50,820 nt of DNA from Terriglobales bacterium (GTDB taxonomy: Bacteria > Acidobacteriota > Terriglobia > Terriglobales > Acidobacteriaceae), in assembly GCA_030038475.1 (NCBI GenBank), contig JASHOU010000109.1, forward strand, positions 1-50,820, written 5' to 3'. Below are positions 6,916-37,209 of the stretch, piece after piece (within the stretch, counting starts at the first letter, position 1; the number at the start of each line of letters is the position of its first letter). The translations under genes and the position numbers were made by a program. A model generated the notes under the pieces. That model searched no databases, had not been told where the DNA came from, and worked only from the letters and a program-made list of their open reading frames with translations.

Positions 6916-7176
6916 GATTCTTCTCCTAACCACACGCCCCTGTGCAATTGCTAAGTGCGGCTTTTCAGCTTTCTGATCGCAGCCCGGAAAGGCCATCCGA
7001 TCTCGAAGGGTTTACAGCATCGACGAGGCCGATACGCTGAGAAACGGGTAGCCCAGCAAACCGATTTATTCCGCAAGCCATCTCGCCGCCACGATAGTGA
7101 AATCTTAACACGCAGAGAATAGGATTCCCCGTGGGAACAGGCGTGTCCTCACAGCAACGCACATTCGAAGTGACCG

Positions 7177-7227: not shown

Positions 7228-7333
7228 AACGTTTTCAAACCGCGCGGGCTGGGCGATACTGGATAGGCATCCTTCGCGATCGATGGTTCGAGGTTGACCC
7301 TTCGAAGTTGATACCTTGGGGAATTCCAACGGA

Positions 7334-10137: not shown

Positions 10138-12837
10138 CTACTCCACCCCGTTCAGAGCTTGATTGAGCCCAACAATATCGGCTCCGAGATCTTTGCCATC
10201 TGTGCCCTTGTTCTTATAAGGGCTGCCCGACTCAAGCTCATAGTTGCCGCCGTTGCCATTGTCGTATGCAACGAACTGCACGTCACTGGGTTCGGCGGAG
10301 AACAGGTTGCCCGTCGGCCAGGACGATGGCGGAAAGTGGGAGGGCGATGACACGAAAGCATTGTTGGCGAATGTATACGTGCTGAAACAGGCGGCTATGC
10401 TGGTGGCCGGTACGTCGGAGATCGCGCAGCTGTCACTGCCATGGCCCGAGTTCCATACCGGACCCTTGCCGGTGGTGACCAAGTTGTTGGTGAAAACCAG
10501 TCCATACATCGATGGATTGCTCGTCACGTTCCCCACGACCATCAAGCCGCCCGCAGGATCCGGGAAGCCAGTAACGTGATTGATGGTGACCGTATTGAGC
10601 GGGTTCTTCGGCCAACCGTTCACGATTTCAAACAGGTGGCCCTCGCCATTGTACTTCTGGCTGATGTCATCCATGACGATGTCATGAATACTCCAGCGGG
10701 TTCCCATGTAGGCTGGCGCTCCGCCCGAGCCATTCCCTGAAATCGCCGTCGCCAGTTGCATGCCGCTAGCGGCGTGGAAGATGTGCGTGTAGCGGACGGT
10801 GACGTCGGTGACCTCGCAGATCGGACAGACGTTCTCATCCTTCTTCGCCGAGTGCTGGTTCTTGGGAGTGAGGAGTATGGCATAGCCGGTCTGGCTGAAA
10901 CCTCCCCAGACATCCTCCATCAGATTATCTTCGGCCAGCACTCGTACAGCATTCTTCAATTCTAGGTGGTTCTTGACAATGAACGGCTTACCACCGACTC
11001 CGCCCTGGAACGGGGAATTGCCCGGCATCCACTGCCACGGTTTGAAAAAGTGATTGAACTGAATGGTGATGTCAGTGGGGGTGGTAGTTGCTGCGGCGCC
11101 GCCGAAGATGATGGCTTCGCTCGAGGCTTCGAGGAAGTTGTCATAGATGTAGTAGATACCATCCTGGTAATTGCCGATGCCACCGCTCACCGCGTGGGCG
11201 TCCGTACAAGTACCCGTGATCGAGGTGCAGTGGAAGTCGCTGAAGTAGGAGTCGACGACGGCCACATTATTGGTGCCGCCCATGGCGAAACCGTCCTGCG
11301 TTTCATCCGCGGTCGTACCGTGCACCCAGCTCCGATCCAGCACGATGTAACTCGCCGAGCCTCCGGGGCTGACCGATAGCAGAGCGGGAGCTGCATTGGT
11401 CCCTGTCGGCCGGGTGATCTCCAACCCGAGTAAGCGGTAGTGGTTCGCTCCTGACTGGAAGATTACCGGTCCGTTCGCCGCTCCACTCTGAACAAGTTTG
11501 ACAAGGACATTCTGCGGATTGCTGCACGAGTATTGCGGACGTCCGGGCAGGGAACCAACGCCCGCGTAACAAGGCGTCATGCGCTGTCCCTCGGCGGGCA
11601 GGCTGTCATCGGAAGCGCTGGTGCGAACAATGATCCAGTGATCGCTGTCGCAATTGAGGGCAGGGAACTGAAAGTTTCCGGTAAAAGTCGCCCCGGCCTG
11701 TAGTTGAATAGTATTGCCGCACTGAGCGTTGTTCAGTGCCGTCTGTAGGTTGCTGCCAGAATTGACCGTGATCACCGGTCCCGGTGCCGGCGTGTCTGCC
11801 ATCGAACTAACGGGGACGGCGATCGGCAGTTCCGCCGGGCCGTCGTAGCCGCTGCTGCCGGCCACAACAAGGCTGAATTGGCCAGTGGCCGGATCGTTGT
11901 CGGAGTCGTCAACTGTAACTGTGAAGTTGAAGGTGCCGGTGGCCGTGGGCGTGCCCACAAGATTCCCATTGCTATTCAGCGTGATTCCTGGTGGAAGCGC
12001 GCCTGCGGAAACGCTCCAGGTGTAGGGCGTGACTCCGCCGGTCGCAGTAAATGTGTCGCTATAGGGGTTGCCTTGCTCGCCTTGGGGAAGACTTCCGGTA
12101 GTGATTTGGAGATTATTCGGATCAACGGTGACAGTAGCGCTCGCCGATTTTGAAGAATCGGCCTTGCTTGTAGCCGTAACGAAGACGGTGGTTGGCGAAG
12201 TTACCGTTGGCGCAGTGAACAAGCCACTGCTATTTACCGAGCCGGCGCTCGCCGACCAGGTCACACCCGTGTTGTAAGTGCCGCTGACCGTGGCCGTGAA
12301 CTGCTCCGTCTGCGTGGAAAGCACGATTGCGCTGGTCGGGGAGATGCTGATTTGGATATTGTCACCACCGCCACTACCGCTGCCGGTGATGTTCAGGGAA
12401 AACATCTGGCTGCCCTGATCGGGTAGGGGCTTATCCGTCGCAATGATTTGAAACGAAAAATTGCCTGCCTTGCTAGGCGTGCCCGACAAGGTTCCGGTAG
12501 TTGGACTCAAACTAATGCCCGGGGGTAGTGAACCGCTTTGCACCGAGAAAGAGTACGGGGAATTTCCGCCACTGACTGTTAGAACGGCATTGTAGGGCTG
12601 CTGGACGGTGCCCGGATTCAGACTTCCGGACAACTTGAGTTCCTGCGTTTCATTACCGGTGCCCGCAGCCTGTGCCGTGCCGCAAGAAACAGTTATCAGC
12701 GCCAGAGCGAGCAGGAGCAACAGCATACTCAAATGCTGTGCTCGCGCGGCGAAAGAGGTGCGTGTATGTTCTGAGAAAGCTTCCGAATTGGACTTGGAAT
12801 TAGTTTTATTAAGTGCTGCCGCTACGGTTACAAACAT
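10138..12837 (-). CDS. Secreted Ig-repeat beta-helix protein
   Basis: 899 residues. The N-terminus has a long n-region, a Leu-rich hydrophobic core (MLLLLLALALITVSCG) and a Cys that may be a lipidation site, although the -3 residue is unusual. Residues ~70-330 hold three Ig-like units: a He_PIG repeat (YSFSVQSGSLPPGISLSP), a Big_2-like unit (ISISPTSAIVLSTQTEQFTA) and another He_PIG (YTWSVSAGALPPGITLN). From ~340 to the end is a parallel beta-helix domain homologous to the protein at 5077-6915, with the same CGNTI/CGDTL, IVRTSASDDSLPAEG and GKDLGADI...GVE landmarks. A GAGAGGG-like ribosome site precedes the ATG. It is probably a surface-displayed carbohydrate-active or carbohydrate-binding protein; activity unproven. 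Confidence 0.7.
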   Translation of the reverse strand: MFVTVAAALNKTNSKSNSEAFSEHTRTSFAARAQHLSMLLLLLALALITVSCGTAQAAGTGNETQELKLSGSLNPGTVQQPYNAVLTVSGGNSPYSFSVQSGSLPPGISLSPTTGTLSGTPSKAGNFSFQIIATDKPLPDQGSQMFSLNITGSGSGGGDNIQISISPTSAIVLSTQTEQFTATVSGTYNTGVTWSASAGSVNSSGLFTAPTVTSPTTVFVTATSKADSSKSASATVTVDPNNLQITTGSLPQGEQGNPYSDTFTATGGVTPYTWSVSAGALPPGITLNSNGNLVGTPTATGTFNFTVTVDDSDNDPATGQFSLVVAGSSGYDGPAELPIAVPVSSMADTPAPGPVITVNSGSNLQTALNNAQCGNTIQLQAGATFTGNFQFPALNCDSDHWIIVRTSASDDSLPAEGQRMTPCYAGVGSLPGRPQYSCSNPQNVLVKLVQSGAANGPVIFQSGANHYRLLGLEITRPTGTNAAPALLSVSPGGSASYIVLDRSWVHGTTADETQDGFAMGGTNNVAVVDSYFSDFHCTSITGTCTDAHAVSGGIGNYQDGIYYIYDNFLEASSEAIIFGGAAATTTPTDITIQFNHFFKPWQWMPGNSPFQGGVGGKPFIVKNHLELKNAVRVLAEDNLMEDVWGGFSQTGYAILLTPKNQHSAKKDENVCPICEVTDVTVRYTHIFHAASGMQLATAISGNGSGGAPAYMGTRWSIHDIVMDDISQKYNGEGHLFEIVNGWPKNPLNTVTINHVTGFPDPAGGLMVVGNVTSNPSMYGLVFTNNLVTTGKGPVWNSGHGSDSCAISDVPATSIAACFSTYTFANNAFVSSPSHFPPSSWPTGNLFSAEPSDVQFVAYDNGNGGNYELESGSPYKNKGTDGKDLGADIVGLNQALNGVE

Positions 12838-13115
12838 TGAGCCCTCTCGACTGTAGACGAAGTGGGGGACTAGTCGATTGTCCTCGTGCTGAATCTATCG
12901 GTAGAGGGCCGCGCTTCCCAGATATCCGAAGTGCAACAGGAAACTCATTAGTACACTTGGACGCGGCATGTCCGGATTCGCGCGCGCTACTGTCCGAGCG
13001 TGTTCTGTTACGAATCCATGAAACCAGGCGCGCAGTTGGAGATTTGAGAGGTCATTTACGTGTCGCGAAAGTTCACTGCAATGCGGAGAAACTTAGGTAA
13101 GTATCTAGGGAGTTA
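12838..13115. other. Intergenic region, no gene seen
   Basis: 278 bases upstream of the Ig-repeat beta-helix gene and downstream of the deacetylase that ends at 13116. It must hold the leftward promoter of the beta-helix gene, but I see no convincing -35/-10 pair. No structured RNA or coding frame stands out. Confidence 0.4.
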
Positions 13116-13913
13116 CTATTGTTTTTCTTTCAGCAAGGCCGCGCGCAAGCGATCGTAAGTGCGATTGCCGAGCATGCGCTGCGCGCCGCGGCGAACCTGA
13201 TAGGGCAAGCGTTTTTTCCATAAGCCGCGGCCGTGGCAATTAGCAATGAACTCCTCGAGCGTGACGCCGCGCAGCAATCCCACCCGGTTGAGCTCGTACC
13301 GGCTGGTGTTTGGCGAGTTAGCCGAAAACCGGCTGTTGGCAACGGTTGCGAATCCCGCCTGGCGCGCCACCTTCAGTGTGCGCTCGTCGTAGCGCCCTCC
13401 GGGACAGGAAAAGTGTTCAATACTGTGTCCGACGATCTGCTCGATCTGCAGCTTCGCATCGACGATCTCACGTTTCAGCTCCGCATCGGTGATATCGCAA
13501 AGATAAGGATGCGTCATCGAGTGGCAGCCAATCTCGAATCCCTGCGCATCGAGCTCGCGCACCTGGCCGGCGTTTAGATAGCCGGGCGTTCCCAGAAATC
13601 CAGTGACAAGGTAGAAGGTTGCGTTGAAGCCGAACTCGCGCAGCACCGGCGCGGCGGCGATGAGATCGGTTTCGCAGCCATCGTCGAAGGTGATGCAAAC
13701 GCCGGGCTCGGAGGGATAACTGAGGGCTTCGCTAACGCTCACGCCGCGCCAGCCCGAATCCCTCAACCACGCCATGTGGCTCCGGAAAGTTTCGATCGGC
13801 AGAATGTAACGTACGTAGCCGGGTTCGGATTGGCAAAGCGGGCGTCCGGGCAGCTCCAGTTCGTGATACATCAGAAAAACCCACCTTCTTGCCACCTTGG
13901 TAGTCGCGGCCAT
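13116..13913 (-). CDS. Polysaccharide deacetylase (NodB family)
   Basis: 265 residues starting at MAATTKVARRWVFLMYHE. The NodB motifs are canonical: VCITFDDGCETD (catalytic Asp and metal Asp), EIGCHSMTHPYL (two metal His), HFSCPGGRYDE (motif 3). The frame is open for another 133 codons upstream, but that part is the reverse-frame shadow of the PHP gene. The true ATG at 13913 forms a TGATG stop/start overlap with that gene, showing tight coupling. It probably deacetylates an N-acetylhexosamine of the polysaccharide. It is the last gene of the minus-strand sulfation run and the second deacetylase in the window. Confidence 0.85.
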   Translation of the reverse strand: MAATTKVARRWVFLMYHELELPGRPLCQSEPGYVRYILPIETFRSHMAWLRDSGWRGVSVSEALSYPSEPGVCITFDDGCETDLIAAAPVLREFGFNATFYLVTGFLGTPGYLNAGQVRELDAQGFEIGCHSMTHPYLCDITDAELKREIVDAKLQIEQIVGHSIEHFSCPGGRYDERTLKVARQAGFATVANSRFSANSPNTSRYELNRVGLLRGVTLEEFIANCHGRGLWKKRLPYQVRRGAQRMLGNRTYDRLRAALLKEKQ

Positions 13914-14707
13914 CAGAAGATCTTTCGAAAAGGCGATTTCATCGATTCCGGTACGCGGATTCCCACCCGTTCCATCGCCTGCTTGCCCTGCTTCAAAATC
14001 TGCCATACGCGGCGGGAGCTGGAATTCGCTTTGCCAAACTGGGTGAGAAGTTGTTCGTCGAGAATTCCAGACGAGGGTAGTGTCAATTCCCCTTTGACCC
14101 CTGCGTAGGCGCCTCGCGTAAGCGCCGCGACAATGCCGTCCCGGTTGGTTGCTTCTGAGTCGAGCTCTACGAGTAATCCGCGAAACTGTTTTTTCCAGTG
14201 CAAATCGAGGCCGTAAAAAGCGTGCATTTCCGGCCTGCGCTCGCGCAGCCGGTGAAACAGCGCGAAAGTCTCCGGCCGCGGAGCGTAGCGTCCGTCGTAC
14301 TTCGAATTCCACGTTTCGATTCCCTGTGGAAGCGTCTCAAATTTCTCAATCCACTCGAAATGATCATTCCTGGGATGAGCGATCACCGAAATCGCACCCT
14401 GCTCTTCGATCTGGCGAATAACGGTCTGCGGGTCCTCGCTGTCGATGCGCCGCGTCGCGCCATAACCCAGGATGTGCATCTCCTGCTCGCAGCGAAATTC
14501 CAACCCGGCGACAAAAAGAAGCTTCTCGTCAGATAACGATTGAAGCTCGTCGTGATATTGGCGCAGCTTGTCGGAATCAAAATATTCCGCGTGGTCGGTA
14601 ATGCAGACGAAGGCGCAACCTTCGTCAAGGAAGATGCGGCGCAGCTCGGCAAGCGTGAATTCGCCGTCCGAGTAAGTGCTGTGCATGTGCATTGCGCCTT
14701 TCAGCAT
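13913..14707 (-). CDS. PHP-domain metal-dependent phosphoesterase
   Basis: 264 residues of the PHP (polymerase and histidinol phosphatase) superfamily. Metal-binding motifs are MHMHSTYSDGEFTLAEL at the N-terminus, VCITDHAEYFDS near residue 37, AGLEFRCEQEMHILGYG near 67, SVIAHPRNDHFEW near 107, and GLDLHWKK near 170. Such enzymes hydrolyse phosphoesters or phosphoric anhydrides; relatives in capsule loci act as phosphatases. Here it sits between an ATP-grasp enzyme and a deacetylase, with a TGATG overlap to the latter. The substrate is unknown; it could remove a phosphate from a glycan intermediate or act in regulation. Confidence 0.8.
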   Translation of the reverse strand: MLKGAMHMHSTYSDGEFTLAELRRIFLDEGCAFVCITDHAEYFDSDKLRQYHDELQSLSDEKLLFVAGLEFRCEQEMHILGYGATRRIDSEDPQTVIRQIEEQGAISVIAHPRNDHFEWIEKFETLPQGIETWNSKYDGRYAPRPETFALFHRLRERRPEMHAFYGLDLHWKKQFRGLLVELDSEATNRDGIVAALTRGAYAGVKGELTLPSSGILDEQLLTQFGKANSSSRRVWQILKQGKQAMERVGIRVPESMKSPFRKIF

Positions 14708-14731
14708 GGGCCCCTCGTTACACCTCTCATA

Positions 14732-15928
14732 TTATTGCTTGCCGCGCCAAACGCGGCGGGCAAAGTCCAGCCAATCGCCAACTTCCGGCAGCGGATCGTT
14801 CCACTGAAACAAGTCGTGAACGGTTCCCGGCACCGGTTTGAGAATCGACGCCAGCGTTGCGAAGCGCCCCGGATACGGTCCGGGATAACCCGGCGGCGGT
14901 CCTTTCCAGACCTCGACTAAATGGCGCAGGTCGCCGAGAAACCAGCGGCAACGCACGCCGCTGCGATAGCCATGTTGCGGCGGAACGTCGCCGTGTTCGG
15001 CCATTTGCGCCAGTAGGGCGGGGAAGTCCACGCCGGCATAGCAGGCCAGAGGCAAAGAATGCCAGAAGCGGCCATTCACTTCCATGAATACCGGCGCCTT
15101 GCCCTTCTGCCAACGAAATTCGACCATCGCTACTCCGTGCCAGCCAAGAGCTTCAAGAATAGCCAACCCGGCGCGTCGAATCTCCGGCTCGGGTTCGCGG
15201 CTTTCGCGCACCGCGCTGCCCGAGCCGGTGGGATAAACATCGCGAATCCGGCGGTGGGCGAACTCGGCGCGAAGTTCTCCATTATGCATGAGCGCGAAAT
15301 AGCCGGTGCCTTCGCCTTCGACGTACTGCTGCACCAAAACGCCCGATGAACGCTGGCTGATATCGGCATACGCCGATTCGAACTCAGCCGTCGTGCTCGC
15401 GTAACGCGGACGGCCACCGGTTCGCACGTTGCCCTGCTGTCCGAGTTCTTCAGAGGCGCGGGGTTTGAGCACCACAGGATATTCGAAGGTGTGAGCGACG
15501 CGCTCGGCGTCGTCGCGATTTTCGACGAGTATGGTGTGTGGAATGGCGATGCCGAGCGATCGCGCCAATTCCGTAGTTTGCTGCTTGTCGAAGGCGCGCA
15601 ACACCTGCTCGTGCGATGGCAGCACCATGCGCCCGCCGGCGCGAAAAATCTGGTCGCGATGAAGGGAAAGCGGAAGCGTCGTCGCCTCCGTCATCGGCAA
15701 AACGAGTGTGCCGGGTTCGATGGCGACGAGGTCCGCAATGCTGCTAACAAACGCTTTCACGCGACCCTGCGGCGATGGATACCGAAACGATTCTCGGACA
15801 AAGCGCGACCAGCCTGCCTTGTTCCATGAGGTCCAATCGCCCGTCAGCACAGTGTGGCCGGCCTGTGCCAGAGATCGGACTGCCGCAACTGCCTGATTCT
15901 GGTTTCCGTCGAGCACCAGAATTCTCAT
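14732..15928 (-). CDS. ATP-grasp domain ligase
   Basis: 398 residues. A pre-ATP-grasp Rossmann-like N-terminus (MRILVLDGNQNQAVAAVRSL) is followed by the ATP-grasp fold: FDKQQTTELARSLGIAIP, the Lys-containing strand YPVVLKPRA near 155, VLVQQYVEGEGTGYFAL near 205 and the Mg-binding segment FMEVNGRFWHSLPL near 290. Family members join a carboxylate to an amine or thiol using ATP. Located among glycosyltransferases, deacetylase and sulfotransferase, it may amidate a uronic acid or add an amino acid to the glycan; this is inference. Ten bases separate it from the upstream glycosyltransferase, so it is in the same operon. Confidence 0.8.
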   Translation of the reverse strand: MRILVLDGNQNQAVAAVRSLAQAGHTVLTGDWTSWNKAGWSRFVRESFRYPSPQGRVKAFVSSIADLVAIEPGTLVLPMTEATTLPLSLHRDQIFRAGGRMVLPSHEQVLRAFDKQQTTELARSLGIAIPHTILVENRDDAERVAHTFEYPVVLKPRASEELGQQGNVRTGGRPRYASTTAEFESAYADISQRSSGVLVQQYVEGEGTGYFALMHNGELRAEFAHRRIRDVYPTGSGSAVRESREPEPEIRRAGLAILEALGWHGVAMVEFRWQKGKAPVFMEVNGRFWHSLPLACYAGVDFPALLAQMAEHGDVPPQHGYRSGVRCRWFLGDLRHLVEVWKGPPPGYPGPYPGRFATLASILKPVPGTVHDLFQWNDPLPEVGDWLDFARRVWRGKQ

Positions 15929-15938
15929 GGCAGCACTC

Positions 15939-17201
15939 TCATTGTCGAACGGGCCTTACGGGTTCGACGGAATCGACGCCACTGGCGCGGGCCGCAGCGG
16001 AATTTGCCGCGGTCACCTTACGCAAGACGTCAGCGAACTGCTTCACCACCTGAGACCAATCGTACTGTGCAGCCAGTCGCACAGCCGCCTGCTCGAACTT
16101 GCGGCGCACGGCAGCATCGCGGAGAAGCAGCATTACAGCATCGGCAAATGACGCGGCGTCATCGGCGAGCAGAAGATCGCGGCCGTTTTCGACACCCAAA
16201 CCCTCCGCGCCAATGGAGGTCGAAACCATGGCCTTGCCCATTGCCATCGCTTCGAAAATCTTGAGCCTGGTGCCGCCGCCAATCCGCAACGGAACCACGA
16301 CAACCGAGGCTTTTTCCAGATATTCCGCGACCGAAGGAACGGTGCCGGTGACCTGAACCGAGGGGCTCGCCAGCCGCTGCACTTTAGCGAATGGATTGCG
16401 CCCGACAATCTGGAAAATTGCAGCCGGAAACTCGACCAGAACCCGAGGCCAAATCTGGGAGCAAAAATATTCCACCGCATCGACGTTCGGCTCCCAATCC
16501 ATGGAGCCAGTGAAAACCACGCGCGCAGGTTCGGCCGACGATGGCGGCGCTATATTGAACTTCTGTGTGTCCACTCCGGTGGGAACGACGGTAATCTCGC
16601 AGGAGGGATTCATTTGCAGCATCTGCTGGCGATCATGCTCGGAGACGGCGATGATGTGATGAAATTTTCCCAGCGTCGCGCGTTCGTAGCGAGTCATCTT
16701 GGCCGACTCAATGGCGAAAGATAATTTTTTGATCGGATTCGACTCCACAGCGGCGAGTCGCTGCCACAGCGAGCTTTCCACGTTGTGCTGAAACAGCACG
16801 CAGGGCATGAGTAATGGCGAGGGAAAATTCCATGAGGCGGAAAGAAAATCGCAGACGGCAACGTCGAAACGTCCACTCGGAAGCCAGTTGCAGAGTTTGC
16901 TTCGAACCAGGCGATGCGTGAACTTGGAGACCGCATAGGGCGGTCGCATGGGCAAGCGATACAGATAATCGAGGCTGCGATCAAGAAAGTTGGAATCAGG
17001 CGCCGCGGTGTGAATAATTTCCGATCCCGGCAGTTCCTTGCCGAGCACGACCTCGAAATCCCGATCCCGGCGGCCACCGTAATACTGGAGCAGCGTGACT
17101 TCGTGATCCTTCCCAAGAAAACGAAGAAGATTATAAGAGCGGATTTTCCCTCCGGTATCGACCGGCAAGAGTTTGCCGCCCTTCACCCACAGCACTCTCA
17201 C
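15939..17201 (-). CDS. Glycosyltransferase family 4, XrtA-type (TIGR03087-like)
   Basis: 420 residues with GT-B architecture. The N-terminus 'VDTGGKIRSYNLLRFLGKDHEV' resembles the GDKIRS segment of the exosortase-associated sugar transferases. A linker 'RYERATLGKFHHIIAVSEHD' leads into the donor domain with VVFTGSMDWEPNVDAV, 'FQIVGRNP' and 'LRIGGGTRLKIFEAMAMGKAMVST'. It starts at GTG in a GTGA overlap with the upstream sulfotransferase gene, so glycosyl transfer and sulfation are translationally coupled. Substrate unknown. Confidence 0.83.
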   Translation of the reverse strand: MRVLWVKGGKLLPVDTGGKIRSYNLLRFLGKDHEVTLLQYYGGRRDRDFEVVLGKELPGSEIIHTAAPDSNFLDRSLDYLYRLPMRPPYAVSKFTHRLVRSKLCNWLPSGRFDVAVCDFLSASWNFPSPLLMPCVLFQHNVESSLWQRLAAVESNPIKKLSFAIESAKMTRYERATLGKFHHIIAVSEHDRQQMLQMNPSCEITVVPTGVDTQKFNIAPPSSAEPARVVFTGSMDWEPNVDAVEYFCSQIWPRVLVEFPAAIFQIVGRNPFAKVQRLASPSVQVTGTVPSVAEYLEKASVVVVPLRIGGGTRLKIFEAMAMGKAMVSTSIGAEGLGVENGRDLLLADDAASFADAVMLLLRDAAVRRKFEQAAVRLAAQYDWSQVVKQFADVLRKVTAANSAAARASGVDSVEPVRPVRQ

Positions 17202-18289
17202 CGGGAACTCCCCGCCGAAGGCTGGGAGACAGCCGTTCTTACTTCCGGAGCGTGATCTTCAGCCTGCGTGCCCCAATCCAGACGCGCCGCCGTCAGCGGA
17301 CGAAGTCTGGTTACCAGCGGGTGGTTCTTCACCCGTAGTTTGCTCTCAAACAAAGCGCGGTAGAACTTGCGAGTGATTTTCGTTTGCAGATTCATCGTTG
17401 GCGGCCTTCCCTCGCCTGTTCCGCCGCTCGTAAGTGAATAACCATGCTTCAGCATCGTGCCGCCGATCATGCTCTCAAAGCGGTGCAACTCGCCGTCGGA
17501 AAACTTCTTTTTCCAGCGTCCAACCGGGCTGAATTTTTCCCGTGGATCGGCGCGGAACAAAGTGTTTGGCCGGCTCACCGAGCCGTAGCCCGCGTGCATA
17601 ATGCGAGAGTAATCGAGCTCGTGATCCAAGAACTTGCCGACTCGATCCAGCGTCTGCTGGGGCGATTCGATCAGATCCTCGAAATGGACTTCCAGGTAAT
17701 CGCTGCCCAGTTGGCGTCCGTAACGGTAACCCTGCTCCACCACCCACTCCCAATAAACGCCGGCTCCCATCAGGCTGATGCCGCGCCGCCACGGCAATGT
17801 GCCGACAAATCGCGTGTTGTGAAGCGACGTCGCCACATCGCGTCCGTCGCGGATCATGTGGATGATCAGCGCCTCGGGAACGAGACGCTTAATGGTTGGC
17901 AGGTGCATGTTGCCTTCGACACTGTTCTCCGCCCAGCGCTGCATACCTTGTCGGCGGCACATGGCGTCCATCACAATGCGGAGAAAATCTCCCGCATTGT
18001 GGCAGTTTTCCAGAATGTCATTTTCGATTTCGCTCGCTTCGAGCCCGGTTGCCCGAAACAACTTGCTGCCAAGCCAAACGCGCAGCAGTTTTTCGCGGTC
18101 GGAGCGCCGGCGCAGATTGCCGTAATGCGGCGCCAGCAGATTAAATACGTTCGATTCCGCCAGGTAAACGGCAAATCCGCCGGCGGAGAGCAGCATGTCA
18201 TAGAACAAGGTTGTGCCCGAACGAGCGCTGCCTATCACAAACACAGGCGCAGTGCTTCGGCTTGTTCTGGCCGCCACGAACTCCTCCAC
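17198..18289 (-). CDS. Sulfotransferase (Sulfotransfer_3-like)
   Basis: 363 residues. PAPS 5'-phosphosulfate loop FVIGSARSGTTLFYDMLLS at 17-35 and 3'-phosphate site IHMIRDGRDVATSL near 143-156; GRWKKKFSDGE follows in the C-terminal part. It shares the LLSAGGFAVYLAESNVFN segment with the proteins at 2747 and 3847, so the three are paralogues. The start is GTG 18289, or possibly GTG 18277, which lies just after a GGAGGAG. It lies 33 bases downstream of the CysQ-like gene and overlaps the next glycosyltransferase, placing it inside the PAPS-synthesis run. It uses PAPS and releases PAP, which the upstream phosphatase would hydrolyse. Confidence 0.88.
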   Translation of the reverse strand: MEEFVAARTSRSTAPVFVIGSARSGTTLFYDMLLSAGGFAVYLAESNVFNLLAPHYGNLRRRSDREKLLRVWLGSKLFRATGLEASEIENDILENCHNAGDFLRIVMDAMCRRQGMQRWAENSVEGNMHLPTIKRLVPEALIIHMIRDGRDVATSLHNTRFVGTLPWRRGISLMGAGVYWEWVVEQGYRYGRQLGSDYLEVHFEDLIESPQQTLDRVGKFLDHELDYSRIMHAGYGSVSRPNTLFRADPREKFSPVGRWKKKFSDGELHRFESMIGGTMLKHGYSLTSGGTGEGRPPTMNLQTKITRKFYRALFESKLRVKNHPLVTRLRPLTAARLDWGTQAEDHAPEVRTAVSQPSAGSSR

Positions 18290-18322
18290 TGCGATTTTAA
18301 ATCAGCTTTGCTGCCCACGGTT

Positions 18323-19126
18323 CTAACGTTCTACGGTATTAAGGTAACCGCTTAATCGCGACATCAGTTCCGTCCCGAGGTATGGGCCACAGGCGATCAA
18401 TCCGGTAATCAACGGATTCTTTTGATTGCACTTCAAATCGGTCTGCTCCAGCGTCTGCACAAAACCACCTGCAGCGAGCACCAGTGCGGTGCCGCCCGCG
18501 ACATCCCATTCATGCTTGGGAACGAGCGTGAAAGTAACGTCGGCGCGTCCAGCCGCAACCAAGCCGAGTTTATATGCGACTGAGCCCATGGGGCGCGTAG
18601 CGAAGTCGGAGGATTCGAACTGCTTCCACTCGCCGCGCTTGACCTCGCTGCGGCTGGCAAGCACGAGCGCGCCCTGCAGATGTTTGCGCTGGCTTGGAAC
18701 GGCAGCCGCTCCGTTATAGGTCACACCGGTGTCACGTGAGCCGAGGATTAGCTCATCCGTTGCCGGATTGCAGATTCCGCCCGCGATGGGAATGCCATGC
18801 TCAACCATGCCGATAGAAACGCAGAATTCAGGAATACCCTGCACGAACTCGCGCGTGCCATCGAGAGGATCGACCACCCACACGCGCTCTTTATCGAGGC
18901 GAGTGAAATCATCGACGGTTTCCTCCGACAGCCAGCCCTCACCCGGACGAAGGAGGTGCTCTTTGAGCACGGCATCGACGGCACGGTCGGCCTCGGTGAC
19001 TGGATCGTGTCCAGCTTTGTATTCGGTGGCAATGGCTCCGGGGGTGAAGCGCTTAAGAACCGCCCGCGCCGCTTCCAGCGCGGCATGAATGCGTTCGAGA
19101 GTTTCGTCCGATGAATTTGAAGTCAA
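18323..19126 (-). CDS. cysQ: 3'(2'),5'-bisphosphate nucleotidase, CysQ-like
   Basis: 267 residues from TTG 19126, preferred because GGAG lies 6 bases upstream; the frame stays open to a GTG at 19165. It is a member of the inositol monophosphatase fold: WLSEETVDD (metal Glu), WVVDPLDGTREFV (the DPxDGT metal motif) and the C-terminal EWDVAGGTALV. This combination, rather than the SuhB variant, matches PAP phosphatases. It converts PAP, the by-product and inhibitor of sulfotransferases, to AMP and phosphate. Its place between the PAPS-making and PAPS-using genes supports this. A role on inositol or fructose bisphosphates cannot be excluded. Confidence 0.85.
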   Translation of the reverse strand: MTSNSSDETLERIHAALEAARAVLKRFTPGAIATEYKAGHDPVTEADRAVDAVLKEHLLRPGEGWLSEETVDDFTRLDKERVWVVDPLDGTREFVQGIPEFCVSIGMVEHGIPIAGGICNPATDELILGSRDTGVTYNGAAAVPSQRKHLQGALVLASRSEVKRGEWKQFESSDFATRPMGSVAYKLGLVAAGRADVTFTLVPKHEWDVAGGTALVLAAGGFVQTLEQTDLKCNQKNPLITGLIACGPYLGTELMSRLSGYLNTVER

Positions 19127-19197
19127 TGTGTACTCCGATAGAAGGTCTTGGTTGTCAAGTCTCACGGTCTAGCAACTCGGCTCAAGATTAACGGTTT

Positions 19198-19231
19198 TCC
19201 TAAGACCTGACACCTAACACCTGAGACCTGC
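19198..19231. repeat. AGGTCTCAG-family short repeat
   Basis: Tandem degenerate copies of the word ACCTGA(G/C)ACCT fill the 70-base gap between the permease and CysQ-like genes. The same word family builds the large hairpin at 43610-43723, so it appears to be a dispersed element. Confidence 0.5.
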
Positions 19232-19236
19232 TTCTT

Positions 19237-20007
19237 TCACGCCCACAGCATTCTCGCTCCAGTCATCAGCAGGACAGCGCAGAGGATTCGACGGAGCCAG
19301 AGGACCGGAACGCGCGTGCTCAGATACGAGCCGAGAATGCCGCCGGGGATCGAGCCAATGAGTATGGCTCCGACCAGATGACCGTCGACATTGCCCGCGC
19401 GGAAGTGCAGCAAGCCGGTGACGCCAGTGAGAATCACGGCATGGGCGATGTCGGTTCCGACCATGATTTTTGGGGGGAAAGAATAGAACAATAGCAGCAG
19501 CATCATAATGATGCTGCCCGAGCCGACAGAAGTGATGCCGACGAGAAATCCGCCGACTAATCCGATGGCACTCATACCCACGAAAGACTTCAAAGTGGGT
19601 TCGCGTCCGATGAGATGGTCTTCGATCCGCCGCTGGAAAAGAAGCAACGCGGGGACGATGACCAGCAACAGACCCACGGCGGACTTGATGAAATCGTTGA
19701 CGCCGGCGCCATGGACTTGGCGCAAGTGCACTAGAAGAGCCACCCCGAGGTACGAGCCTGGGACGCTGCCCACCGCCAACCCCAGCACGACCCTCATGCG
19801 CACCGTACCCTTGCTGAAATGGAGGATGCTGGCGGGAATCTTGGTGAAGAAGTTGCAAAGCGCATCGCTGCCGACCGCCATAATAGCGGGGACGTGCAGT
19901 CCGAAGATTAGTATCGGCAGCAGCAATACTCCGCCGCCCACTCCGGTCAGGCCGATCAGCGTTCCGACGACGAAGCCGGTCAGCACTTTTAGCAGCAAGA
20001 ATTCCAT
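19237..20007 (-). CDS. TauE/SafE (TSUP) family permease
   Basis: 256 residues, eight predicted membrane segments in two homologous halves. The N-terminal repeat has VVGTLIGLTGVGGGVLLLPIL and the second half GGFLVGITSVGSGSIIMM; these Gly-rich helices are the hallmark of TSUP proteins. Family members move sulfite, sulfonates or sulfate, and some carry other small anions. Lying between ATP sulfurylase/APS kinase and PAP phosphatase, it is the likely sulfate (or sulfite) transporter of the sulfation pathway; direction of transport is not readable. About 255 bases separate it from the upstream gene, so it could have its own promoter. Confidence 0.82.
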   Translation of the reverse strand: MEFLLLKVLTGFVVGTLIGLTGVGGGVLLLPILIFGLHVPAIMAVGSDALCNFFTKIPASILHFSKGTVRMRVVLGLAVGSVPGSYLGVALLVHLRQVHGAGVNDFIKSAVGLLLVIVPALLLFQRRIEDHLIGREPTLKSFVGMSAIGLVGGFLVGITSVGSGSIIMMLLLLFYSFPPKIMVGTDIAHAVILTGVTGLLHFRAGNVDGHLVGAILIGSIPGGILGSYLSTRVPVLWLRRILCAVLLMTGARMLWA

Positions 20008-20190
20008 GCGGTCTTTCGGTTGGAGGACTTCCCCGTTCTCAGTTCCCGGTTCTCAGTTGCTTAGTAAAGCAAAACCAGGTTAAAGAACGGAGAATATTGA
20101 AAACCGGCGCTGAGAGCCGCTTTCAGTGGATATTATTACATAAAGTCCATTGTAGTAATCGACTTTATTGACATCGTAAAACAATACTCA

Positions 20191-20250
20191 GTTTCCGGTT
20201 CTCAGCAAGACAGAGCCGATTCAACGCACTGAGAACTGAGAACCGGAAAC
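20191..20250. repeat. Perfect 15-bp inverted repeat between permease and sat/cysC genes
   Basis: GTTTCCGGTTCTCAG at 20191-20205 is matched by its exact reverse complement at 20236-20250, with a 30-base spacer. Further GGTTCTCAG words occur at 20034-20057. It could fold in mRNA just after the sulfate adenylyltransferase stop at 20263, but no U tract follows, so it is not a typical terminator. Confidence 0.6.
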
Positions 20251-20262
20251 CCGGAACTGCCT

Positions 20263-22005
20263 CTACCCGTTGCCGTTGGTTCCCACAAAGCCCTCGCGCT
20301 CCAGATGCAGAAGAATCGCCTGAGCCGCTTCTTCGGGGCTCAGCTTCGCGGTATCGATGACCACCTCGGCATCGGCGGGAACCTCGTAGGGATCGGAGAT
20401 GCCGGTGAATTCCTTGACGATGCCGGCCCTCGCCTTGGCATACAAGCCTTTGCGGTCGCGCTGTTCGCACACATCGAGCGATGTGGCCGCGTGCACCAGA
20501 ATAAATCCGCCAAAGGGTTCAACCATCTGCCGCACCGCCTTGCGCGTCGCATCGTAAGGAGCGATGGGAGCGCAGATCGCGATGCCGCCGTTTTTGGTGA
20601 TTTCCGAGGCGACATAGCCGATGCGGCGGATGTTGATGTCGCGGTGCTCTTTGGAAAAACCCAGTTCGCTCGACAGGTGCTTGCGCACCAGGTCGCCATC
20701 GAGCAGCGTGACCGGTCGCCCGCCCATTTCCAGGAACTTCGTGATCAGCGCGTTCGCGATGGTCGATTTGCCCGAGCCGGAAAGTCCGGTGAAGAAAATA
20801 GTAACGCCTTGCTTATGGCGCGGCGGGTAGCTGCGGCGCAGTTCCTGCACCACCTCGGGATAGGTGAACCACGCCGGAATATCGCGGCCCTCGTTCAGTC
20901 GCCGGCGCAGTTCCGTACCCGAAATGTCGAGCACTTTGGCGCCCTGCGGCACTTCATCGGCAGGAACGTAGCGGTCTTCGTTTTCGAGATACACCATCAT
21001 CTGGAAGGGAACCATGGTGACGCCCATTTCCTGCTCGTGCTTCTTGAACAATTGTTGGGCGTCATACGGGCCGTAAAAGGGCTTGCCGTCGGTATCCTTT
21101 CCCGGGCCGGCGTGGTCGCGGCCGACGATGAAGTGGGTGCAGCCGTGGTTCTTGCGGATCAGTCCGTGCCAGATCGCTTCGCGCGGTCCGCCAAGGCGCA
21201 TAGCCAACGGCAGCATCGACAGCTTGACAGTGCCATGCGGATACTTCGCAAGCAGCAACTGATAGCAGCGCGTGCGGACGAAATAATCCACATCGCCCGG
21301 TTTGGTCATGCCGACAGAAGGATGAATCAGCAGGTTGGCCTCGACTCGCTTGGCGGCGCGCATGGTGAGCTCGACGTGGGCGCGATGCATGGGATTCCGC
21401 GTCTGAAAGGCCACTACCTTAGTCCACCCGAGACGGGTGAATTCGGCGCGCACTTCAGCCGGAGTTAGGCGCAACTCGCGGAAATCGTAGTGCGACGGGG
21501 GTTGGAAGCCTTCGATTTTTCCGCCCACATACCACGGGTGCGATTTGTTGATGGCATAGTCGGCGCCCGGGTGCGCGGCGCTGGTGGAATTGAAAACGGC
21601 CTCGGCCTCGGCTTTGCGGTCGGGCTGCCAGACATCTTTTACGTGGAGCACGGCGAGCATCACGCCTTCCGGGTCGCGCAACGCGATCTTGCTGCTGCCA
21701 GGTGTTAATTTTTTGGCGAAATCTTCGGAGACGTCGAGCGTGATCGGCATCGGCCAAAGCGTGCCATCGGCCAGCCGCATTTTGTGGCATACGCTTTCAT
21801 AATCGTTGCGGTTCATAAAGCCGCGCAGCGGCGAGAATCCTCCGCTCATCAGCAGCTCCAGATCGCACAACTGGCGCGCGGTCAGATCCCATGAGGGCCA
21901 ATCCTTGGAATGCGCCTTCAGCTCCGCGGCACGCTGGTCAGACACTTGCAGTTCGACAAGTTCGCCCCCATGCGGGGCAATAAGATGGCTTGTGGCAGTG
22001 GTCAA
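20263..22005 (-). CDS. Bifunctional sulfate adenylyltransferase / APS kinase
   Basis: 580 residues from TTG 22005, chosen because GGAGG lies 6 bases upstream; the frame runs on to a GTG at 22128. Residues ~1-390 are an ATP sulfurylase of the single-chain (Sat) type, with VVAFQTRNPMHRAHVEL (QxRNPxHxxH), FIVGRDHAGPGKD and DISGTELRRRL. The last ~190 residues are APS kinase with P-loop TGLSGSGKST, LDGDLVRKHLSSELGFS and a Phe-Ile-x-Val core. The fusion makes PAPS directly from sulfate and 2 ATP. No PAPS reductase is in view, so PAPS here is probably a donor for the six sulfotransferases rather than for cysteine synthesis. It is the first gene of the minus-strand run. Confidence 0.92.
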   Translation of the reverse strand: MTTATSHLIAPHGGELVELQVSDQRAAELKAHSKDWPSWDLTARQLCDLELLMSGGFSPLRGFMNRNDYESVCHKMRLADGTLWPMPITLDVSEDFAKKLTPGSSKIALRDPEGVMLAVLHVKDVWQPDRKAEAEAVFNSTSAAHPGADYAINKSHPWYVGGKIEGFQPPSHYDFRELRLTPAEVRAEFTRLGWTKVVAFQTRNPMHRAHVELTMRAAKRVEANLLIHPSVGMTKPGDVDYFVRTRCYQLLLAKYPHGTVKLSMLPLAMRLGGPREAIWHGLIRKNHGCTHFIVGRDHAGPGKDTDGKPFYGPYDAQQLFKKHEQEMGVTMVPFQMMVYLENEDRYVPADEVPQGAKVLDISGTELRRRLNEGRDIPAWFTYPEVVQELRRSYPPRHKQGVTIFFTGLSGSGKSTIANALITKFLEMGGRPVTLLDGDLVRKHLSSELGFSKEHRDINIRRIGYVASEITKNGGIAICAPIAPYDATRKAVRQMVEPFGGFILVHAATSLDVCEQRDRKGLYAKARAGIVKEFTGISDPYEVPADAEVVIDTAKLSPEEAAQAILLHLEREGFVGTNGNG

Positions 22006-22576
22006 GTCTATCCTCCGGATCTTCACTTCAGATTTCTGTTTGATTTCAAAATCGCTGAGGCTCACCCCAACTTCCCTTCTGCGCCTGGAACCCGCTGGGG
22101 CTGCGAGGGGATGGTCCGACAGAGGCACTCACTTAAGTTGTACAACACGTTCCGCGAAATCGGCGGGTCGCATTGTGAATCAGCAATTCCGCTACCTATA
22201 GAACTCCCCAATTCCGATTGTAAGCCATCGAAAACAGTATGTGATCCGGCAATATCGCGGTGGCCGGGAATTTCAGCCCGGTCGAGATGAAAAAAGTTGC
22301 AATATTCGACCCTACCGAGGGAAGAGAATTTGCAATCTGCGCCTCAAACAACTCTCCGCCATACCCACGAAAAATGCGGAGCCCCAATCCTAACCCACTT
22401 AATTTTAGCCCTATGGCCTTGCCCCGCACTCTCGGTGCGAACTAGGAGTCAATCGTCGGTAACGTGGGGATTGCGTTTCTCCATTGGCGATGGCGCTATT
22501 GCGGGAGAATAAACTAAGAAGTGATTTTGGCGCCTTCACGGTTACCTTCGGGGCATTCAAATCGGCAAAAACCGTA

Positions 22577-22766: not shown

Positions 22767-24134
22767 ATGGCCAGCAAGAAAGTTGTCATTATCGGAGCGG
22801 GACCGACTGGACTGGGTGCGGCCTATCGACTCCACGAATTGGGCTATGCGAACTGGGTGCTTTACGAGAAATCGGGCGGCGTCGGCGGCCATGCCACTTC
22901 CCATGTCGATCGGCAAGGATTTGTTTGGGATGAGGGCGGCCACGTCATCTTTTCGCACTATAAATACTTCGATAATCTGATCGACAAAGTTCTGGGCAAA
23001 GAAGTTCACGAGCGCATTCGCGAAAGCTGGATTGTGCAGGGCGACGATTCCTGGGTGCCTTATCCGTTTCAGAGCAATCTGCGTTACCTGCCGAAAGAAA
23101 TTCAGGTGAAATGCCTGCTGGGCGCAGCCAAAGCGGCCGCCAATGGAGGCGGTCGCGAAGCGGCGAATTTTCGGGACTGGATTCTTGCCACCTTCGGCGA
23201 GGGCATCGCCGAAGCTTTCATGTTCCCTTACAACTCCAAGGTCTGGACGACTCCGCTCGAACAGATGTCCAAACACTGGATTGCGGATCGAGTCGCGGTC
23301 GTCGATTTCAAGCGGCTGCTCGAAAACGTTCTTTACGAGCGCGACGACGTGGGTTGGGGACCGAACAGCAAATTCAAATTCCCCTTGCACGGTGGCACGG
23401 GCGAAATCTACCGGCGCATGGCTGCGCATTTCCCGGAGAAAATCAAGACCGAAAAAAAGCTTGCGGAAATCGACCTTGAGCGCCGGCGAGTTTCCTTTGC
23501 CGACGGCACGGGCGACACCTACGATGTGCTGATTTCGACCGCGCCCCTCGATCTGCTGGCGCACATGATCACGCCCGTGAATAACCGGCTCAAAGACGCC
23601 GCGCAAGGCCTGGAGCACAACAATCTGCTGGTCGTCGGGCTCGGTTTGAAAAAGAAGATCGAAACCGGGCGCTGCTGGATCTACTTCACCGATGCGCAGA
23701 TGCCCTGCTACCGCGCCACCTATTTTTCGCACTATTCGCCGTTCAACGTTCCGAACGGCGATACCGAGCAGTACAGTTCGCTGATGTGTGAAATGTCATT
23801 CCGCGTAGGCGAATCGCCCGATCCTGAAAGAGTGCTGGATCAACTGATAGCCGGGCTGATTCGGGCGAAGATTCTCGAAGAGTCGGACCGGGCCAAGGTT
23901 GTCTCGCGCTATCAGCGCGTGGTGGGATACTCGTATCCGATTCCGACTCTCGGCCGCGACCGGGCACTCGAGGTTCTGCAACCGGCCTTATTGGAAAAGG
24001 GAGTTTATTCTCGCGGGCGCTTTGGCGCCTGGAGATATGAAATCGGGAATATGGACCACTCGGTGATGATGGGTGTCGAAGCCGTTAACAATATCGTTGC
24101 GGGGGAAAAGGAACAGGTTTTTCATAGTTCGTAA
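22767..24134 (+). CDS. FAD-dependent oxidoreductase / UDP-galactopyranose mutase-like
   Basis: 455 residues. The N-terminal dinucleotide fold is clear (VVIIGAGPTGLGAAYRLHE, then an acidic residue ending strand 2 and GGVGGHATS). Next are the W-DEGGHVIFSHYKYF segment and a C-terminal second FAD-contact region (GAWRYEIGNMDHSVMMG). It belongs to the amine-oxidase/protoporphyrinogen-oxidase-like group often found in LPS and capsule loci; the 'YPFQSNLRYLP' stretch recalls UDP-galactopyranose mutases. A plausible role is isomerisation or oxidation of a nucleotide sugar. It is the first gene of a rightward run that continues with a GT2 and three sulfotransferases. Confidence 0.75.
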   Translation: MASKKVVIIGAGPTGLGAAYRLHELGYANWVLYEKSGGVGGHATSHVDRQGFVWDEGGHVIFSHYKYFDNLIDKVLGKEVHERIRESWIVQGDDSWVPYPFQSNLRYLPKEIQVKCLLGAAKAAANGGGREAANFRDWILATFGEGIAEAFMFPYNSKVWTTPLEQMSKHWIADRVAVVDFKRLLENVLYERDDVGWGPNSKFKFPLHGGTGEIYRRMAAHFPEKIKTEKKLAEIDLERRRVSFADGTGDTYDVLISTAPLDLLAHMITPVNNRLKDAAQGLEHNNLLVVGLGLKKKIETGRCWIYFTDAQMPCYRATYFSHYSPFNVPNGDTEQYSSLMCEMSFRVGESPDPERVLDQLIAGLIRAKILEESDRAKVVSRYQRVVGYSYPIPTLGRDRALEVLQPALLEKGVYSRGRFGAWRYEIGNMDHSVMMGVEAVNNIVAGEKEQVFHSS

Positions 24135-24231: not shown

Positions 24232-25218
24232 TTGCCAGCAGCCCAGACCAATCCGCCGCCTACAGTCAGCGTCATCATTCCGAGCTACAAGACCGCCGAT
24301 CTGATTGCCGCGTGTCTCGATTCTGTCTTTGCGCAAACCTATACGGATTTCGAAGCGATCGTCGTGAACGACGGCTCGCCAGACACGCCCGCACTGGAAA
24401 AAGTGCTCGCGCCTTACTTGAGCCGGATCGTTTACATCAAGCAGGAGAACAAGCGCGCCGCCGGCGCTCGCAATAACGCCATCCGGCAGGCGCGTGGTGA
24501 GTTCGTTGCCTTCCTCGACAGTGACGACACCTGGTTGCCGAATCATCTCGCTGCGCAGATGCAAATGTTTGCCGACGACCCTTCGCTCGATTTCGTTTAT
24601 GCGAACGCCCTGCTGGTTGGCGATCCCGGCCACGAGCGGCCGTTCATGCAGAAGTGCCCGTCGAACGGGAACCCTAGCTTCGATGCTCTGATTGTCGAGC
24701 GCTGCCACATTCCAATTTCGACCGTGGTGGCGCGCAAGCGAGCGCTGGTGGATGTGGGATTGTTCGACGAGAAACTTCCGCGCTGCGACGATTACGATCT
24801 CTGGGTGCGGACCGCCTTCAGCGGCGCCAAATTCCGCTACAGCCGGGTGGTGCAGGCGCGGCTGCTAGTCGGCCGGCCCGGTTCCTTGGGCCAATCCAGA
24901 GCCAAAATGGCGGAGGCTTACTGGAGTATTCTGGAGAAGTTCAAGCGCACCCTGCCGATGAACGACGCGGATCGCGCAGTGGTGGAAAAGCGCGCCGCCG
25001 AGATTCGAGCCAAATATTTACTGGAAGAAGGCAAGTGCAAGCTGGCCGAACGCCAGTTTGACGGAGCGCGAAAGTTGATTGCCGAAGCAAACGGCTATTT
25101 GCATCGTTCCAGTTTGAGTCTGGCAGTGTTCGGTTTGAGTATTGCCCCCGGCGCGACCAGCAAACTCATGTTCTTCTGGAACCGGATTCGCAACGGCGCG
25201 TCGGGCTTGAGGGCTTAG
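24232..25218 (+). CDS. Glycosyltransferase family 2
   Basis: 328 residues. The GT-A domain starts at TVSVIIPSYKTADLIAACLDSVFAQ, followed by AIVVNDGSPD (first Asp pair), ARNNAIRQARGEFVAFLDSDDTW (the DxD motif) and LPRCDDYDLWVRTAF (ED-type base region). There are no membrane segments, so it is a cytoplasmic enzyme that extends a lipid-linked oligosaccharide. The TTG start is supported by AGGA 5 bases upstream. The C-terminal ~70 residues are helical (KRAAEIRAKYLLEEGKCKLAE). It is probably transcribed with the upstream oxidoreductase, 97 bases away. Confidence 0.85.
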   Translation: MPAAQTNPPPTVSVIIPSYKTADLIAACLDSVFAQTYTDFEAIVVNDGSPDTPALEKVLAPYLSRIVYIKQENKRAAGARNNAIRQARGEFVAFLDSDDTWLPNHLAAQMQMFADDPSLDFVYANALLVGDPGHERPFMQKCPSNGNPSFDALIVERCHIPISTVVARKRALVDVGLFDEKLPRCDDYDLWVRTAFSGAKFRYSRVVQARLLVGRPGSLGQSRAKMAEAYWSILEKFKRTLPMNDADRAVVEKRAAEIRAKYLLEEGKCKLAERQFDGARKLIAEANGYLHRSSLSLAVFGLSIAPGATSKLMFFWNRIRNGASGLRA

Positions 25219-25293
25219 TAGCAGGGCTTAGTAACGAAGAACGACAGCGCGGAACGATCGCGCACACGGTGTGGGACCAATAGTGTGGGAACA

Positions 25294-37100: not shown

Positions 37101-37209
37101 CAATTCACCTGGGCTACCAAAATTGCGGACGCCGAAAACTGAGTTGCCGAAAAATGGAGATGCCGAAAATCAGATCTGTTGAGAATCGAACTCGCGTCAT
37201 TGAACTCCA

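Follow-up and report, generated by a model that had tools for sequence, protein, structure and literature searches.

A probable sulfate-donor module within a variable exosortase-type exopolysaccharide locus of an acidobacterium

Why should genes that activate sulfate lie among genes for polysaccharide synthesis in an acidobacterium? The question is raised by contig JASHOU010000109.1 of the Terriglobales assembly GCA_030038475.1 (G000: 4.46 Mb in 216 contigs, completeness 98.4%, contamination 3.5%). The window analyzed here is this entire contig (C188; 50,820 nt, or 50.8 kb). An initial annotation had read eight genes at 13–22 kb as a self-contained operon for making 3′-phosphoadenosine 5′-phosphosulfate (PAPS), sulfating a polysaccharide and recycling the leftover 3′-phosphoadenosine 5′-phosphate (PAP). 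Our analysis points to a modified view: the block probably supplies activated sulfate within a more extensive and variable exopolysaccharide locus of the exosortase type, and its ATP sulfurylase (Sat) is probably shared with the cysteine branch of sulfate metabolism. Gene families were assigned by Pfam gathering cut-offs and NCBIfam curated cut-offs. All eight genes lie on one strand (13116–22128, minus), each above its Pfam gathering cut-off, the PHP and ATP-grasp genes marginally so:

20263–22128, minus strand: satC, predicted fused ATP sulfurylase/adenosine 5′-phosphosulfate (APS) kinase; one 621-aa longest frame with PUA_2, ATP-sulfurylase (289 bits) and APS_kinase (196 bits) domains
19237–20007, minus strand: TSUP/TauE permease (PF01925, 154.7 bits; 8 hydrophobic stretches)
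18323–19165, minus strand: CysQ-like phosphatase of the inositol monophosphatase family (PF00459, Inositol_P, 160.5 bits)
17198–18289, minus strand: sulfotransferase ST3 (Sulfotransfer_3, PF13469, 78.6 bits; ARSGTT motif)
15939–17201, minus strand: GT4 glycosyltransferase (Glyco_trans_1_4, 94 bits; TIGR03087, 221.7 bits, cut-off of 316.65 not reached)
14732–15928, minus strand: ATP-grasp ligase, accessory (ATPgrasp_Ter, 30 against 29.1, marginal)
13913–14707, minus strand: PHP-domain metallohydrolase, CehA/McbA-like, accessory (PF02811, 27.5 against 26.4, marginal; NF038032, 64.3, cut-off 80)
13116–13913, minus strand: polysaccharide deacetylase deac2 (PF01522, Polysacc_deac_1, 91.3 bits)

The start of satC is uncertain and may lie anywhere from 22128 to ~22005. 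The 398-aa frame of the deacetylase overlaps the PHP gene, and its domain begins only at residue 201; we therefore take ~13116–13913 as the real gene. The GT4 protein appears to be a TIGR03087-related enzyme of the exosortase-system type. From satC to the deacetylase, in order of transcription, the gaps are 255, 71, 33, −4, 10 and 24 nt, followed by a slight overlap (GT4 and ST3 share 4 nt); by this spacing the genes from TSUP to the deacetylase resemble one transcription unit, and satC could be separate. We infer that the block is co-transcribed. Searches of the window with Rfam (gathering scores) and ARAGORN returned no RNA elements and no tRNAs. The PHP protein was considered as a second PAP phosphatase and rejected (NF041577, 27 bits against 400; solved relatives weak).

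SatC is a fused bifunctional sulfate adenylyltransferase/APS kinase whose activity is predicted from intact motifs. It scores 939 bits against the model for the bifunctional enzyme (NF004040, cut-off 669) and exceeds the cut-offs of the APS-kinase models TIGR00455 and NF003013. Alignment to 1i2d shows the Sat motif QTRNPMHRAH, the kinase Walker A motif GLSGSGKST and the DGD loop all to be present. Its closest named matches are acidobacterial (Acidobacteria, Terriglobia and Ca. Sulfotelmatobacter metagenome-assembled genomes, 81–86% identity, among the best 80 of 586 matches, which may omit records very near the window's own genome), and the soil acidobacterium supposed by the initial annotation is accordingly plausible.

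Searched against the whole assembly, SatC matches itself only, and a single APS kinase is returned by PF01583. Relatives searched in this way do yield unfused Sat genes: a second, unfused Sat-like match at 34–36% identity is present in three genomes of the genus (G002, G004, where it has internal stops, and G009). The idea that the assembly has another system for activating sulfate was discarded, since neither CysD nor a further Sat or APS kinase was found; this uniqueness holds for a nearly complete but fragmented assembly, and a second copy could sit in missing or masked sequence. Barring such a copy, the sole detected Sat must also serve cysteine synthesis.

The remainder of the cysteine branch is encoded elsewhere. 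A PF01507 search of the assembly found a single genuine CysH. Its gene, on contig C101, belongs to a run with a NirA-type sulfite/nitrite reductase, the N-domain of cysG (siroheme synthase) and cobA (uroporphyrinogen methyltransferase); a weak second match on C163 proved to be TilS. Thus the earlier remark that no PAPS reductase is visible holds for the window alone; the genome does have a cysH gene, and the conclusion drawn from its absence, that the block has no cysteine-biosynthesis purpose, has to be given up: the only ATP sulfurylase/APS kinase match is the window's. Neither is the module self-contained, for no way from sulfate to APS was detected other than its Sat, while the cysH operon lies on another contig. 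Of the two findings that the initial annotation had named as jointly contrary to its proposal, one, a sole sat-cysC with cysH elsewhere, is what the assembly holds; of the separate cysDN/cysH path that it had suggested seeking, cysH was found and CysD, searched for in the assembly, was not.

CysH carries CC, CxxC and ECGLH, the Fe–S APS-reductase cysteine pattern, as do 24 of 24 CysH-like open reading frames (ORFs) from 30 loci; six other, CysD-like ORFs have neither CC nor ECGLH, and locus L170 gave no match. The protein passes the broader models NF002537 and TIGR00434. Among solved proteins it is closest to 7lhr (176 bits), which we take to be the mycobacterial APS reductase, and to 2goy (adenosine phosphosulfate reductase, 155 bits), while chains named PAPS reductase score lower (2oq2, 111; 2o8v, 95; 1sur, 85 bits). 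From these features we infer that CysH acts on APS and not on PAPS. An APS reductase requires neither an APS kinase nor PAP removal, and hence the presence of a kinase domain and a CysQ-like gene suggests that PAPS has another user.

The CysQ-like protein is likely to be a PAP phosphatase: its motif DPLDGTREF resembles DPLDGTKEF of E. coli CysQ, unlike DPLDGTTNF of SuhB, and TIGR01331 (CysQ) is its best NCBIfam model. For the TSUP permease sulfate uptake is likely by analogy with Corynebacterium glutamicum CysZ, a DUF81 membrane protein for which mutant growth data, in the available part of the report, support high-affinity sulfate transport (PMC1266029). Six sulfotransferases lie in the window, all above the gathering score of PF13469 or PF00685 and each with an RSGT or PKSGNTW motif. 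Besides ST3 these are the five flanking genes already recognized in the initial annotation:

2747–3850, minus strand: ST1 (Sulfotransfer_3; GRSGTK motif)
3847–4905, minus strand: ST2 (Sulfotransfer_3; HRSGTN motif)
25285–26151, plus strand: ST4 (Sulfotransfer_1)
26272–27144, plus strand: ST5 (Sulfotransfer_1)
27226–28086, plus strand: ST6 (Sulfotransfer_1; ST4–ST6 with PF00685 at 133.6–148 bits and PKSGNTW motifs)

The motifs are presumably those that bind the 5′-phosphosulfate, and DUF81 is, we assume, the present-day TauE/TSUP family. Counting matches to either Pfam model, there are eight sulfotransferase places in the assembly as a whole, and the fact that six of the eight fall in one 50.8-kb contig is far above an even spread.

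To what extent is this arrangement kept among relatives? Sixty genomes were sampled; the genus is represented by 24 genomes, G000 included. SatC matches of at least 70% identity over at least 270 residues were found in 24 of the 60, and neighborhoods were taken from 20 of these (13 of the same genus, seven of other genera; G004, G006, G016 and G021 were left out as fragmentary). In all 20 loci satC and cysQ are on the same strand, adjoining or with TSUP alone between them (the contig of L062 ends within cysQ). TSUP occupies the place between in 16 (12 of 13 same-genus loci, four of seven from other genera). A sulfotransferase lies within the fetched flank at 10 of the 13 same-genus loci and at two of the seven others. 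Median identities across the 13 genus loci, calculated from matches covering 60% of the query, are 89% for satC, 83% for TSUP, 77% for cysQ and 73% for deac2 (11 of 13 loci); those of the cargo are lower, at 56% for Wzx (nine loci) and 42–68% for the best-matching sulfotransferases (five to six loci each, partly paralogues). The GT4 gene at 15939–17201 recurs in one of the 13. The block is, in short, a conserved donor core, satC–TSUP–cysQ, with exchangeable cargo, and in many genomes the core is joined by the deacetylase, an Ig-like protein, the protein at 5077–6996 and ST2/ST1.

Across 61 genomes fused satC and a strong sulfotransferase co-occur (23/3/3/32, Fisher p 1.4e-10, mostly one clade; 4/3/0/6, p 0.049, in the 13 same-family genomes outside the genus), where strong means PF00685 at E ≤ 1e-20, a threshold chosen afterwards, the counts were made by hand and the short satC fragments of G007 were scored as present. 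Within the genus a clear CysH was found in 17 genomes and none in seven; three of the seven are at least 90% complete (G002, G017 and G020, the last with a weak CysH match), and satC and sulfotransferases are present in each of these. Conversely G001 (99% complete) has cysH and neither satC nor sulfotransferases, from co-loss or a missing contig. The contigs of G007 (L176, L177 and L178) break inside or beside satC, two of them ending with an identical N-terminal satC stretch, and in both G007 and G013 contigs terminate at or beside the donor module. The donor core may therefore break metagenome assemblies, which makes presence counts lower bounds; the absence of satC from G003 is uninformative, its place reading N.

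The rest of the locus is recognizable from the other genes of the window, which include an XrtA-system deacetylase and a flippase:

342–1649 and 1613–2713, plus strand: two GT4 glycosyltransferases (in G015 and G008 a homologous pair shares a contig with exosortase-type and sulfotransferase genes)
5077–6996, minus strand: conserved secreted-looking 639-aa protein (no Pfam or NCBIfam match)
7316–8221, plus strand: XrtA-system polysaccharide deacetylase (DUF3473; TIGR03006, 352 bits, cut-off 276)
10138–12837, minus strand: secreted-looking Ig-like (He_PIG) protein, a conserved neighbor (PF05345; nine of 13 same-genus loci)
22767–24134, plus strand: flavin amine-oxidase-like enzyme (PF01593; seven of 13 same-genus loci)
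24232–25218, plus strand: GT2 glycosyltransferase (PF00535)
28234–29811, plus strand: Wzx-like flippase (PF13440/PF01943; NF041503 below cut-off; 12 hydrophobic stretches)

The window thus holds PAPS synthesis, PAP removal, a permease, sulfotransferases and glycosyltransferases, all parts expected of a sulfated-polysaccharide locus with its own PAPS supply, as in Cobetia and Vibrio, with export genes on another contig. This contig, C45, encodes an exosortase of the XrtD type (TIGR04152, 447.9 against 400), an EpsB-type sugar-phosphate transferase (TIGR03013, 463.5 against 393.35) and a tyrosine autokinase (TIGR01007, 131.5 against 108.05), together with export, chain-length and O-ligase-like genes that all fall below their cut-offs. 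Exosortase and EpsB-type transferase (C45) and the system deacetylase of TIGR03006 (window), the marks of an exosortase exopolysaccharide locus, are therefore all found in G000, on separate contigs. In two of the four relatives examined, G015 and G008, a stretch (~52 and ~59 kb) of a single contig joins exosortase-type, export, chain-length, kinase and EpsB-type homologues to the donor trio, and the same stretches also hold the GT4 pair, ST1/ST2 or ST2, ST4–6-like genes and Wzx. The invariant order of satC and cysQ together with this joining makes PAPS supply for polysaccharide sulfation the best reading, and a sulfated polysaccharide the predicted product. In this respect the initial annotation is borne out: with six sulfotransferases in the locus and satC–cysQ kept at every one of the 20 loci, a PAPS-making and PAP-recycling module for a polysaccharide remains.

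According to the model, sulfate probably enters the cell through the TSUP protein and would be turned into APS by the Sat domain and then into PAPS by the fused kinase domain. Up to eight sulfotransferases (six on this contig) would then sulfate sugars, presumably those of the polysaccharide or of a lipid-linked repeat, and CysQ, if its specificity is as supposed, would turn the leftover PAP into AMP. Some APS is probably also drawn off, for cysteine, by the Fe–S APS reductase CysH encoded elsewhere.

Several observations weigh against this view. The 255 nt between satC and TSUP, and promoter and terminator scans that came out near chance (6 and 15 sites, where shuffled sequence gave 3.9 and 12.3) and were for that reason not used, give no help to a single transcript. 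ATP-grasp and PHP occur in none of the 13 same-genus loci, so that part of the supposed eight-gene operon is accessory: of the gene order expected in relatives, the satC–TSUP–cysQ core was kept and these two genes were not. As a PAP phosphatase the CysQ-like protein retains the motif and the best model, but with 133.2 bits it does not reach the TIGR01331 cut-off of 228.8, for which reason we call it CysQ-like; in pairwise comparison it is closer to SuhB (95.5 bits) than to E. coli CysQ (74.3 bits), and its assignment depends on motif and neighborhood more than on score. CysH narrowly misses TIGR02055 (APS_reductase; 228.0 against 235.3), its best solved relative 7lhr is listed as ‘phosphoadenosine phosphosulfate reductase’, and some Fe–S CysH enzymes accept both APS and PAPS. 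G032 (88% complete) has satC–cysQ and no convincing sulfotransferase. Exosortase-type genes were not found in the G009 (~80 kb) and G002 (~60 kb) stretches, barring a 32–34% match to one C45 gene. Finally, among 80 named loci of many phyla that encode the fused enzyme, a sulfotransferase-like ORF lies in the flank of nine, most of them weak (by home-made hidden Markov models, several loci being only 3–5 kb long), and a CysQ-like match in 26. From the nine of 80 and from G032 it follows that the fused enzyme itself is no marker of sulfation; the neighborhood is.

On a rival explanation the trio is an ordinary sulfate-assimilation operon that happens to lie in a polysaccharide locus, with CysQ clearing PAP from a PAPS-using CysH and the sulfotransferases as minor consumers. 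That the window holds the sole Sat and APS kinase of the assembly, that cysH and its reductase, cysG and cobA companions are present on C101, that satC and cysQ adjoin in sulfotransferase-poor members of the family as well (for example G032 and G034) and that the fused enzyme mostly lacks a nearby sulfotransferase-like ORF across phyla all fit this explanation. We nevertheless consider it distinctly unlikely: given the Fe–S cysteines of CysH, PAPS and CysQ should be dispensable for reduction; satC and sulfotransferases are retained in the three near-complete genomes that have no clear CysH match; and placement inside a polysaccharide locus is genus-wide. A somewhat less improbable, though still doubtful, alternative keeps sulfation and changes the target to a glycolipid, a lipopolysaccharide or a secreted glycoprotein sorted by the exosortase. 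Both sulfotransferase families are broad, the nearest solved relatives of ST5 being cytosolic small-molecule sulfotransferases and ST3 weakly matching tyrosylprotein sulfotransferase (E 0.01), and an exosortase stands in the extended locus of two relatives; set against this, the neighbors are glycosyltransferases, deacetylases and Wzx, to which exosortase-type export and chain-length genes are added in relatives, the usual setting of an exopolysaccharide.

It could also be asked whether the fusion makes APS only. In fungal ATP sulfurylase the APS-kinase domain is a regulatory pseudo-kinase, and the solved proteins closest to SatC are 1i2d and 1m8p (690 bits), presumably both fungal and the former the ATP sulfurylase of Penicillium, ahead of the bifunctional SAT/APS kinase 2gks (596). 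An inactive, fungal-type kinase domain was rejected, and is scarcely credible, on the grounds that 1i2d has GYMNSGKDA and LGD where SatC has GLSGSGKST and DGD, that TIGR00455 and NF003013 are passed and that the assembly has no other APS kinase. For the donor-module reading preferred here, a wider claim may be ventured, which we hold as tentative and rate at slightly under even chances: that an entire genus of soil Acidobacteriota produces sulfated exopolysaccharides of the exosortase type that differ in chemistry from species to species, in the manner of capsule serotypes, around an invariant PAPS-supply trio, and that, with the ATP sulfurylase (for most members the sole one detected and hence their gateway to sulfate use) inside the locus, slime and cysteine synthesis compete for one pool of APS.

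Polysaccharide loci with their own PAPS supply are already known as a kind from two marine examples, which we describe from the available parts of the reports. The sulfated-capsule gene cluster of Cobetia marina KMM 1449, for which a capsule structure is reported, includes cysNC, cysD, cysQ, a sulfate permease and sulfotransferases (PMC11766843), and Vibrio sp. KMM 8419 has a second cysDNC in its sulfated-capsule locus (PMC11641403). The acidobacterial locus resembles that of Cobetia in placing PAPS synthesis genes, cysQ, a permease and sulfotransferases within a polysaccharide locus. It differs in that Cobetia, a marine host, has CysD with CysN/CysC and an ABC (Kps) capsule system, whereas here a fused Sat-CysC, TSUP, Wzx and exosortase-type exopolysaccharide genes occur in what is probably a soil organism and are known from genes alone. 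It differs from Vibrio in that the latter has a second cysDNC copy, while the acidobacterial ATP sulfurylase is the only one detected in the assembly. The logic of the branch point is that of Mycobacterium tuberculosis, where APS reductase opens the reductive branch, APS kinase, PAPS and sulfotransferases form the sulfation branch and CysQ clears PAP (PMC3141025); the difference is that CysD/CysNC serve there and that the passages available describe no polysaccharide locus. The xss cluster for synechan in the cyanobacterium Synechocystis combines a Wzx/Wzy-type exopolysaccharide system with sulfotransferases, glycosyltransferases and a sulfated product (PMC8205485); as far as the available text goes no PAPS-synthesis gene is listed, the term ‘PAPS’ is absent from the main text and no exosortase is named. 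The same paper states that bacterial sulfated polysaccharides are made exclusively by cyanobacteria (PMC8205485, in the part available).

Sulfated polysaccharides have been described mostly from marine bacteria, algae and animals. A soil precedent for sulfate activation coupled to a carbohydrate sulfotransferase is rhizobial nodPQ–nodH, where the product is the Nod-factor lipo-oligosaccharide and the activation genes are an extra copy. In the open-licence literature we found, among the matches listed, no paper on acidobacterial sulfotransferases or sulfated exopolysaccharide, and none on soil-bacterial sulfated polysaccharide, on Sulfotelmatobacter with sulfotransferase or on exosortase with sulfotransferase; in their available parts, a sulfatase-database paper mentions one acidobacterial sulfatase and a paper on sulfated exopolysaccharide from Shark Bay does not mention acidobacteria. 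What is new here is the fused enzyme, the exosortase-locus setting, the lineage, probably the habitat, and a conserved donor module amid diverging cargo. If our reading is true, soil is a source of sulfated polymers, with consequences for soil water retention, metal binding and organic sulfur; new carbohydrate sulfotransferases are on offer; and the locus is a clear case of a sulfate gateway enzyme common to cell-surface chemistry and cysteine synthesis.

The remaining observations concern genes further afield. The genome's strongest Sulfotransfer_3 match is on contig C169 (17595–18164, in a 567-aa frame), ~4 kb from a second exosortase (12991–13773). The eighth sulfotransferase, at C104:34572–35285, is near weak glycosyltransferase and Wzx-like matches, and a 1227-aa frame with a Poly_export match lies ~4 kb away; another sulfated-polysaccharide locus may be present there. 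The genes that G002 carries between deacetylase and cysQ (L049, 1208–5673) code for, among others, an asparagine synthase and a protein resembling heparinase II/III, a hint of a polymer containing uronic acid.

Within the window the protein at 5077–6996 recurs at 53–64% identity in eight relatives. Its structure model is all-beta and of low confidence (predicted local distance difference test score, pLDDT, 54.7); a Foldseek search with it gave no match at E ≤ 0.001, and the weak ones are beta-helix glycan enzymes, RbmB and chondroitinase B among them, so to judge from the model it is perhaps a beta-helix carbohydrate-active protein. Further to the right, AMP-binding, GDSL-like (below cut-off), MBOAT and Big_1 genes (35502–43316) have homologues grouped near Wzx in G008 and G002 and may form an acylation module belonging to this locus. 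On the right side of the contig, the C-terminal part of the frame at 46511–47176 matches Unstab_antitox (PF09720, 57.7 bits), a toxin–antitoxin component.

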